Below, piece after piece: positions 21,766 to 55,104 of a DNA stretch of 64,000 bases. The position numbers and the translations under genes were made by a program. The notes under the pieces are model-generated. The model made no database searches, was not told where the DNA came from, and saw only the letters and a program-made list of their open reading frames with translations. Position 1 is the stretch's first letter. Each line of letters begins with the position of its first letter. Source of the DNA: Leptotrichia massiliensis (GTDB taxonomy: Bacteria > Fusobacteriota > Fusobacteriia > Fusobacteriales > Leptotrichiaceae); NCBI RefSeq assembly GCF_900104625.1, contig NZ_FNVZ01000005.1, forward strand, positions 310,001 to 374,000. Reading direction: 5' to 3'.

Positions 21766-22141
21766 TAAGCAGGGAGATCAGACGCCATCTCCCTGCACCC
21801 ACGCTTAACGCAAAACTTTCTTATAAAAGAAAAATAGAACTCGCTTTTGAATTTATATTATTCTAATACAAACAACTTTGTACAACTTAAAATTGTTCCA
21901 AAAGCTCAAACAGCTATTTTTCTTCTAACGAAATTTTGCTTATTAAAGTTTTTACAGATTATTTTGAATAATTATAATTTCCTAATCAAAATAATTGTTA
22001 TAATTAAATTAAAAATACTTAGACAAGCTGGGATTGGTGCGTAGCACTTTTGCCTATATCTAAAAATATTGTAATTTGAAGAAATTAAAATAACTAATAT
22101 TGCGAAATAAAAGAGGATGGTGTCTGCTCCCTTTTATGTAT
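21766..22141. repeat. Inverted pair of structured intergenic repeats (locus B)
   Basis: The left unit is in minus orientation. Its hairpin has stem GCAGGGAGAT/ATCTCCCTGC (21769-21778, 21787-21796) with an 8-base loop that reads GGCGTCTG on the minus strand. A helix AAGAAAAATAG (21827-21837) / CTATTTTTCTT (21914-21924) and an inner GCTTTTG/CAAAAGC pair follow. This unit is nearly the reverse complement of the right unit of locus C. The right unit (about 21960-22141, plus orientation) has AGACAAGCTGGGATTGGTGC at 22021-22040 and a weaker hairpin ATAAAAG...CTTTTAT (22107-22137) with loop GGTGTCTG. It fills the gap between the YjdM-like gene and era. No coding potential. Confidence 0.8.
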
Positions 22142-25514: not shown

Positions 25515-25645
25515 TTTTGCAGGATTGCTCATTGCCGCAAATCCTGCACCTATGGCTAGACTACGACTTTTATTCGCCCAACTACGAAACTCCTCCTTTC
25601 AGTCGTCAGACAGTCGTAGTTGAACAAATAAAAGCTCCGTCAACT
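25515..25645 (-). repeat. Divergent copy of the structured intergenic repeat (copy E)
   Basis: Read on the minus strand, a 21-base arm (25614-25634) pairs at every position, with a few G-T wobbles, with 25567-25587. The 26-base loop begins CTGTCTGA and ends GGAGTT, as in the other copies. Then comes a joint TCTAGCC and a hairpin GCAGGATTTGC/GCAATCCTGC (25519-25547, one bulged base) whose 8-base loop reads GGCAATGA. The helix sequences are unrelated to those of copies B, C and D, but the plan is the same. It starts directly after the uvrB stop; as a terminator for uvrB the hairpin lacks a T-run. Confidence 0.75.
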
Positions 25646-37200: not shown

Positions 37201-37555
37201 TAAGCAAAGGGGAACAGTCGCTATCCCCTTTGCAAACCCAGCTCGTCTAAGCATTTTTTGAAAACAAAATCGAAACTCGCTACGTAAAACTACGCTCAAA
37301 CAGTCGATTTTATTTCCAAAAAATCACGACATTTTTAGTTTAATTAAAACAGTTAATTTAACTAAAACAAATAATAAGCAAAATTTTGTTAGAAGAAAAA
37401 TAGCTGTTTGAGCTTTTGTAGTAAATTTTAAATTGGATAAAGTTATTTAAATTAAAAATAATCTATGTTCAAAAGCGAGTTCTATTTTTCTTTTATAAGA
37501 AAGTTTGCGTAAAGCGGGAGTGCAGAGGTATGGCGTTTGATACCTCTGCTTAAAA
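37201..37555. repeat. Inverted pair of structured intergenic repeats (locus C)
   Basis: Left unit, minus orientation: hairpin GCAAAGGGGA/TCCCCTTTGC (37204-37213, 37224-37233), joint GCTCGTCTAAGC (37241-37252), and a 21-base helix (37253-37273 with 37304-37324, 19 pairs) around the loop AACTCGC...GCTCAAACAG. This unit is the reverse complement of copy D in plan and in much sequence. Right unit, plus orientation: helix AAGAAAAATAG (37393-37403) / CTATTTTTCTT (37482-37492), inner GCTTTTG/CAAAAGC, and hairpin GCAGAGGTAT/ATACCTCTGC (37522-37531, 37540-37549) with loop GGCGTTTG. Between them TTTTAGTT (37333-37340) and AACTAAAA (37360-37367) mark a symmetric centre. The 630-base acpP-fabF gap is otherwise AT-rich. 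Confidence 0.82.
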
Positions 37556-54229: not shown

Positions 54230-54799
54230 GTGAATTTTAGAAAATCAACTTTTGATGATGTGGAGAGAATTTTGGAAATCATCGAAAAAGCAAAAATTGA
54301 ACTAAGGAAACTTGGTTTAGATCAATGGCAAAATGGATATCCAAATAGGGAAGTTATTGAAAATGATGTAAAGTTGGGAATTAGTTATGTTCTTGAAGAT
54401 ATTGAAAAAAATAGAAATGAATTAGAATCAGAAAATTTAAAAAAAATTTTAGGAACAATTGTTTTATCGCCTGAAAAGGAAGAACCGTATTCCAAGATTG
54501 AAGGGAAATGGATATCAGATGATGATTATATCGTAATCCACAGGCTGGCAGTTAATTCTGAAATAAAGAATAAAGGAATTGCAACAAAGATATTAGAATT
54601 TTCGGAAAAAGAGTGTATAAAAAATAAAATACTCAGTATAAAAGCAGATACACATGAAAATAATGAGCCTATGAAAAGGTTTCTTGAAAAAAACGGATTT
54701 AGTTATTGTGGTGTGATTTATTTGGATAGAGAGCCTGATGTTGGTGAAAAGAGAATTGCTTATGAGAAAATAATAAAAATACCACATAAGTTGTTGTAA
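54230..54799 (+). CDS. GNAT-family acetyltransferase
   Basis: 189 residues with a GNAT fold: an opening FRKSTFDDVERILEIIEKAK, an LGLDQWQNGYPNREVIENDV stretch as in many small-molecule acetyltransferases, YIVIHRLAVNSEIKNKGIAT as motif A with the acetyl-CoA-binding N-K-G-I-A-T, and SIKADTHENNEPMKRFLEKN followed by GFSYCGVIYLD. It begins at a GTG at 54230 with GGGAGGAG before it. Substrate unknown. It stands alone, followed by repeat copy D. Confidence 0.87.
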   Translation: MNFRKSTFDDVERILEIIEKAKIELRKLGLDQWQNGYPNREVIENDVKLGISYVLEDIEKNRNELESENLKKILGTIVLSPEKEEPYSKIEGKWISDDDYIVIHRLAVNSEIKNKGIATKILEFSEKECIKNKILSIKADTHENNEPMKRFLEKNGFSYCGVIYLDREPDVGEKRIAYEKIIKIPHKLL

Positions 54800-54849
54800 A
54801 AATTTATTTTTAATAATTTTTAATCAAAATAACAGTTTGTAATTAAATT

Positions 54850-54985
54850 AAAATGTCGTGATTTTTTTGAAATAAAATTGACTGTTTGAGCGAAGTTGTA
54901 CGTAGCGAGTTTCAATTTTGTTTCAAAAAAATGCTTAGACGAGCCAGGGATGCAAGGGAAATGGCGATTGATTTCCCTTGCGTTA
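54850..54985 (+). repeat. Best-preserved single structured intergenic repeat (copy D)
   Basis: Arms 54860-54880 and 54911-54931 form a 21-pair helix with one G-T wobble. The 30-base loop starts CTGTTTGAGCG and ends GTAGCGAGTT. Then come GCTTAGACGAGC (54932-54943), CAGGGAT, and an 11-pair hairpin GCAAGGGAAAT/ATTTCCCTTGC (54951-54961, 54970-54980) with loop GGCGATTG, ending GTTAAAA. It lies in the 305-base gap between an acetyltransferase gene and a PLP enzyme gene, both on the + strand. There is no T-run after the hairpin, so it is not an ordinary terminator. Confidence 0.82.
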
Positions 54986-55104
54986 AAAAAAGAGAAAATA
55001 TAGAAATAAAGAAAAAATTATTAATTAAAATATAAAAACCTTAATCTAAGAAGATTATTAAACACATTTAATAAAAAGAGAAAGAAATGGAGTGTGATAG
55101 TGTT

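Follow-up and report, generated by a model that had tools for sequence, protein, structure and literature searches.

A covarying stem-loop repeat of Leptotrichia: a candidate MITE arm with an apical loop that recurs in other phyla

MITEs are usually viewed as decayed insertion sequences and are defined by their ends. In Neisseria, the Correia repeat enclosed elements give rise to long-stem transcripts that are cut by RNase III (review PMC10969869). MRSC-65-2 is a covarying repeat that occurs across phyla and whose role is unassigned (Narunsky et al. 2024, PMC11109978), and the intrastrand triplex motifs/boxC are repeated in many bacterial genomes and have been linked to variable loci (Holder et al. 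2015, PMC4666352). Here, we analyzed a window of 64,000 nucleotides from Leptotrichia massiliensis, in which a preliminary description, made from the letters of the DNA, had pointed out a family of structured intergenic repeats with one of them, copy D, as the reference.

The layout that the preliminary description gave for copy D, i.e. a long helix, a loop, a joint, and a terminal hairpin, was recovered in every feature and at the same place. The long helix comprises 21 pairs (54861-54881 with 54912-54932), with GUC/GAC below it (54855-54857 with 54938-54940); the apical loop starts with CTGTTTGAGCG on its 5' side and ends with GCGAGTT on its 3' side, and the joint reads GCTTAGACGAGC (54933-54944). 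The MFE was -45.3 kcal/mol (z -5.41), a value equaled by none of 200 dinucleotide shuffles, and the reverse strand folded more weakly (-33.9). The region between positions 54799 and 55087 contains no ORF reaching 80 aa. No T-run was found 3' of the terminal hairpin, where the sequence is GTTAAAAAAAG, in agreement with the earlier opinion that the repeat is not a simple terminator. The terminal hairpins are GC-rich and lie close to gene ends, as terminators or attenuators for the adjoining genes would; however, the T-run is missing past the hairpin both outward (TTAAAAAAAG) and in the opposite direction, which weakens a terminator role, the orientation of the elements to genes varies, and elements are missing at orthologous sites. 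We therefore consider such a role highly improbable.

Table 1. Positions of copy D, its parts, and the other copies in the window. R1 denotes the covariance model described in the text.
Feature	Position	Strand	Basis
Inserted DNA at copy D, approximate extent	54817-55069		Relatives with empty site
Copy D, complete type I arm	54855-54983	+	R1 137.4 bits, E 2e-29; fold z -5.4
Copy D apical loop CTGTTTGAGCGAAGTTGTACGTAGCGAGTT, 30 nt	54882-54911	+	Pattern scans; portion common to other phyla
Copy D terminal hairpin GCAAGGGAAAT-GGCGATTG-ATTTCCCTTGC	54952-54981	+	Predicted fold; covariation at 6 of 10 pairs
Type I arm, left half of divergent pair	37202-37330	-	R1 135.8 bits
Type II arm, right half of divergent pair	37378-37551	+	R1 36 bits over 37437-37551; sequence
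Type II arm, left half of degenerate divergent pair	21767-21939	-	R1 36 bits over 21767-21927; sequence
Partner-arm remnant, joint CTTAGACAAGC and terminal hairpin with nested insert	22018-22139	+	Sequence; weak R1 pieces
Type III-like arm, stem GACGGAGC...GTCGTAGTC, terminal hairpin GCAGGATTTGC	25517-25641	-	R1 60.6 bits; sequence

The recurrences reported at 21.8, 25.5, and 37.2-37.55 kb proved to be real copies, with model scores of 36-136 bits, and the loop motif was present five times in the window at one mismatch or less, as compared with 0.47 times in shuffles. Beneath one loop and plan, the arms carry at least three stem types. The type I stem (GTCGTGATTTTTT) is that of copy D and of the arm at 37202-37330, and the type II stem (GCAAAATTTYGTTA) is that of the arms at 37378-37551 and 21767-21939; the type III stem is GTCGGAGCATTTTT, and the arm at 25517-25641 carries a further, type III-like stem. 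The arm at 37378-37551 keeps the loop and hairpin plan on its different stem and has an insert in the apical loop, and the remnant at 22018-22139 is devoid of the long helix. When arms lie close together in the window's own genome (G000), the pairs are divergent in 10 of 11 cases, tandem in one, and convergent in none.

Some copies contain nested inserts with short stem-forming ends, such as TAGTGCGTAGCACTTTCGCC...TTGCGAAATAA before the terminal hairpin. This insert was observed in the terminal hairpin region at 22018-22139 of the window and at loci L003, L008, L016, L022, L025, and L026, it is the sole difference between the orthologous loci L001 and L026, and inserts related to it were also found within the apical loop. 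Possibly, it is a small mobile module in its own right.

The genome harbors further copies, a point on which the preliminary description had made its family depend: a covariance model (R1) built on 19 copies gave 60 matches in the window's own genome. Across the genus, R1 found copies in all 13 genomes (1 to 106 in each), and in other genera of the family it gave nothing but four weak matches in one genus. The loop pattern occurred at six places in the own genome and had copies in 10 of the 13 genus genomes, with a count of 0 for the reversed control. The claim that the stems had changed and still paired, for which a covariation check had been proposed, was borne out by the R1 seed alignment. 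Compensatory change was seen in 16 of its 36 pairs, and covariation was strong, with a score of 0.346 versus 0.138 +/- 0.011 in shuffled alignments (0 of 500 as high) and 0.03-0.08 in slid controls. Compensatory cells numbered 69 versus 19.9 in the shuffled alignments, and five covariation measures were all above 500 of 500 shuffles and every slid version. The sequence is AT-rich, and chance or low-complexity folding would be one account of its stems; the z of -5.4, the 0 of 500 shuffles on five measures, and the near-zero counts of the reversed-pattern controls speak against this account, which can practically be dismissed.

For the strand test, stems were aligned with G-U and A-C scored identically. 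Repair on double-stranded palindromes predicts that the two mismatches are equal in number. The 33 distinct stems of the genus contained 62 G-U versus 5 A-C mismatches, with G-U in excess in 33 of 33, a count that overstates independence because the copies share ancestry and the events are not independent; in stems from other phyla, the numbers were 26 and 4. The large excess of G-U over A-C argues that the fold under selection is that of a single strand, the outward (loop-forward) one, and strengthens the earlier claim that the folded form is selected. Judged from these sequences, the selected form would be RNA or one defined DNA strand, RNA being most likely.

When the locus of copy D was compared among relatives, it was empty in G006, G009, G011, and G012, where the intergenic region measures only 31-45 bp. 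A type I arm was present in G000, G001, and G002, a type I/type II divergent pair in G004, a type III arm in G003, and reversed type I arms with inserts in G008 and G010. The empty sites and the varying arm types indicate that copy D is inserted DNA and that the site has turned over. Its flanking genes, named by sequence reading, are putative acetyltransferase-like and PLP-enzyme-like genes. No inverted repeats or target duplication could be recognized at copy D itself, which has lost recognizable ends, and a comparison of copy D with plasmids and phages gave no match. At one intergenic site (L029 and L006 versus L010), the element is reversed between species, and one version is without one arm.

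Elements with intact ends were found in the relative G007, the 20-kb stretches of which yielded 23 complete, near-identical two-armed elements of 432-481 bp with the terminal inverted repeats GACAGAGTAAAATAGTTAGGGG / GATGGTTTAAAAATTTTAGGGG. Exact target duplications of 10 bp flank 18 of the 23 and one of 9 bp flanks another, their sequence varying by site. The elements are short and contain no transposase, and the two-armed element of G007 is a true MITE. The reading in the preliminary description was supported, but it had missed that each repeat is an arm of a transposable element and that the arms frequently form divergent pairs.

No partner transposase with the ends GATAGTGTAAAAATTTTAGGGG was found among the IS256-type and IS4/IS5-type candidates checked for G007. 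The IS256-type transposase (PF00872) was rejected as a partner: it is present in 15 copies, but with ends GAGAGTGTCC and 8-bp duplications. These copies are nearly identical insertion sequences, unrelated to the element ends. The IS4/IS5-type (PF01609) is absent from G007, and a 526-aa gene of this type in G005 is without the element ends.

These ends also bear on whether the fold acts as single-stranded DNA, in which case an HUH/Y1-type enzyme (REP or IS200/IS605 style) would recognize the hairpins, and covariation would reflect DNA recognition or palindrome repair. The paired inverted arms do look REPIN-like, the loops are conserved on free stems, and a strand-specific fold of single-stranded DNA would likewise favor G-T over A-C. 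However, the terminal inverted repeats and 10-bp duplications of G007 differ from HUH transposition, and palindrome repair, since it acts on both strands, predicts equal numbers of G-U and A-C where 62:5 was observed. Furthermore, no Y1 transposase genes occur in G000, G003, and G010 alongside their 57-68 copies, whereas G009 has such genes and a single copy; their absence from the three copy-rich genomes weakens a Y1-based reading. We thus regard an action as single-stranded DNA as unlikely.

Another possibility is that the arms are independent, trans-acting small-RNA genes that were spread by MITEs. Their structure is strand-specific, they occur in multiple copies, and a promoter-like TATAAT is found upstream of some type I arms. 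However, the count of -10 boxes upstream of type I arms (43 versus 37.8 +/- 3.4 shuffled) shows no excess, and an own promoter for these arms was accordingly rejected; in addition, the orthologous site carries other arm types or none, and no terminator lies behind the hairpin. It is distinctly unlikely that the arms are genes of this kind.

The preliminary description also missed that the apical loop is not confined to the genus, as other phyla have it. A scan across phyla with one genome per species found the loop CTGTTTGAGCG..AGCGAGTTT in at least 119 stretches, the chance expectation being about 6 over the whole collection (20 fixed bases, 13 gap lengths, equal base composition). The matches listed include Bacteroidetes, Proteobacteria, Bacillota, Gastranaerophilales, Nitrospirae, Aquificaceae, a Patescibacteria member, and others. 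In the window's phylum, the loop was present in 27 of 98 genomes, with reversed controls near zero; among 2.9 million viral contigs, only three carried it. Among 100 distinct copies from the matches listed, the 9-base flanks of the loop pair at 7.89 of 9 positions, as compared with 3.78 +/- 0.13 when flanks are permuted, and 90 different 5' stems lie beneath the loop. The presence of one loop on unrelated stems across phyla suggests a structured element, in the form of RNA or single-stranded DNA, that is widespread and undescribed.

In 53 of 113 cross-phylum copies among the matches listed, the capped stem is followed by a terminal hairpin whose 3' strand is rich in purines. In the matches listed, the hairpin loop pairs with the joint as a pseudoknot (4.90 versus 4.19 +/- 0.12 permuted; for example CCTTGAT/ATCAAGG, CTTGAA/TTCAAG, and TAGCC/GGCTA), and the joint contains a pyrimidine tract that matches, in parallel orientation, the hairpin's purine strand (2.71 versus 0.83 +/- 0.23), as would befit a U-A-U / C-G-C triple helix. 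A covarying pseudoknot together with the triple-helix match was seen at L243, L272, L227, L250, and other loci of L205-L323. By inspection, copy D is devoid of the triplex pyrimidine tract, and the genus arms, examined by eye, offer 2-3 joint-loop pairs only, without consistent covariation, so that no pseudoknot is claimed for them. Since the genus arms have neither pseudoknot nor triplex tract, a common ancestry with the copies of other phyla would rest on the loop, the closing helix, and the general plan.

Recurring neighbors of the cross-phylum copies belong only to common large families (e.g. ABC transporter), with no transposase among them. The type III elements of the window's own genome have TACTAAACCCC ends, and their 3-bp TAA or TTA flanks match in four of five readable cases; in G069, the ends GGGGCTGTTGCA...TGCAACAGCCCC surround the cassette, and the copies in G076 lie inside a longer repeat that has its own right end. 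The differing ends in G007, the own type III elements, and G069 suggest that the interior is kept rather than the ends. In the MITE-like repeats of G069 with ends GGGGCTGTTGCA (L364-L378), the capped stem is present and the terminal hairpin is absent.

On balance, the evidence leans toward copy D being an arm of a non-autonomous MITE with a structured cassette, the outward-strand fold of which is under selection and the loop of which is read by a host factor. In the full element, terminal inverted repeats would enclose two arms that point outward; a transposase would move it in trans, and the cassette of each arm would consist of a long stem capped by the conserved loop, followed by the joint and the terminal hairpin. 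Transcription of neighboring genes would read through the element, the RNA would fold, and a host factor found in many phyla would bind the conserved loop. This factor may make the insertion tolerable, for example by processing or stabilizing the read-through transcript; for processing, the nearest precedent, by analogy, is RNase III acting on Correia elements. A cassette of this kind would be useful to any MITE carrying it, and this would explain its occurrence in elements with unrelated ends. It is plausible, although we stop short of calling it probable, that the arms are the local form of a many-phyla cassette, with the conserved apical loop on arbitrary stems and, in other phyla, a triple-helix pseudoknot after it, and that this cassette was taken up independently by MITEs of unrelated transposon families, its RNA acting via a conserved host factor.

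Here, it is the interior that is conserved, in structure and across phyla, and the ends that vary by carrier. Should the interior function as RNA, selfish elements would have a cassette in common, and its target would be a host component that distant bacteria share; the exact loop sequence makes this idea testable. It likewise provides a point of entry to a repeat found in many genomes and absent from every RNA family library searched.

In Rfam 15, no family reached its gathering score in the window, consistent with the earlier statement that no named family has this layout, and the E-value mode returned one sub-threshold CRISPR-repeat match only on the loci tried. The latter is a weak match to CRISPR-DR7 at L014:646-673 (23 bits versus a gathering score of 37). 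No description of the cassette was found in the open-access literature covered, and literature matches to sequence strings were to unrelated primers or fungal ITS only. MITEs, cross-phylum covarying repeats, and intrastrand triplex repeats are already known, and the cassette itself, of which we found no description, is apparently undescribed.

Like REPINs and RAYT-mobilized REPs, the present elements are inverted pairs of hairpins that have spread within a genome. However, REPIN arms measure 20-40 nt, whereas the arms here are approximately 130 nt, the G007 elements have DDE-like ends and a 10-bp duplication, and the presence pattern indicates that a Y1 transposase is not needed. The BOX/RUP repeats of pneumococcus are also modular and intergenic, have nested insertions, and are carried by MITE-like elements (PMC10969869), but their modules are other ones, and a cross-phylum loop is not reported for them. 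With boxC, the likeness lies in a fold-back triple-helix motif repeated across bacterial genomes (PMC4666352); the boxC motif is, however, of the G/C-rich purine type without a capped long stem, and it is resembled by the cross-phylum terminal hairpin alone and not by copy D. Correia elements are likewise non-autonomous and intergenic with terminal inverted repeats (PMC10969869), but they fold via these terminal repeats, whereas the stems of the present element form arms in its interior, under a conserved loop; no common sequence was seen, and RNase III processing is transferred here as an analogy. MRSC-65-2 shares a long covarying stem found across phyla, dozens of copies per genome, a proposed selfish nature, and the question of RNA or DNA (PMC11109978). 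It is a UYCCGG repeat with a single stem, and the present element is set apart from it, by description, in having the apical loop CUGUUUGAGCG..AGCGAGUUU and a terminal hairpin.
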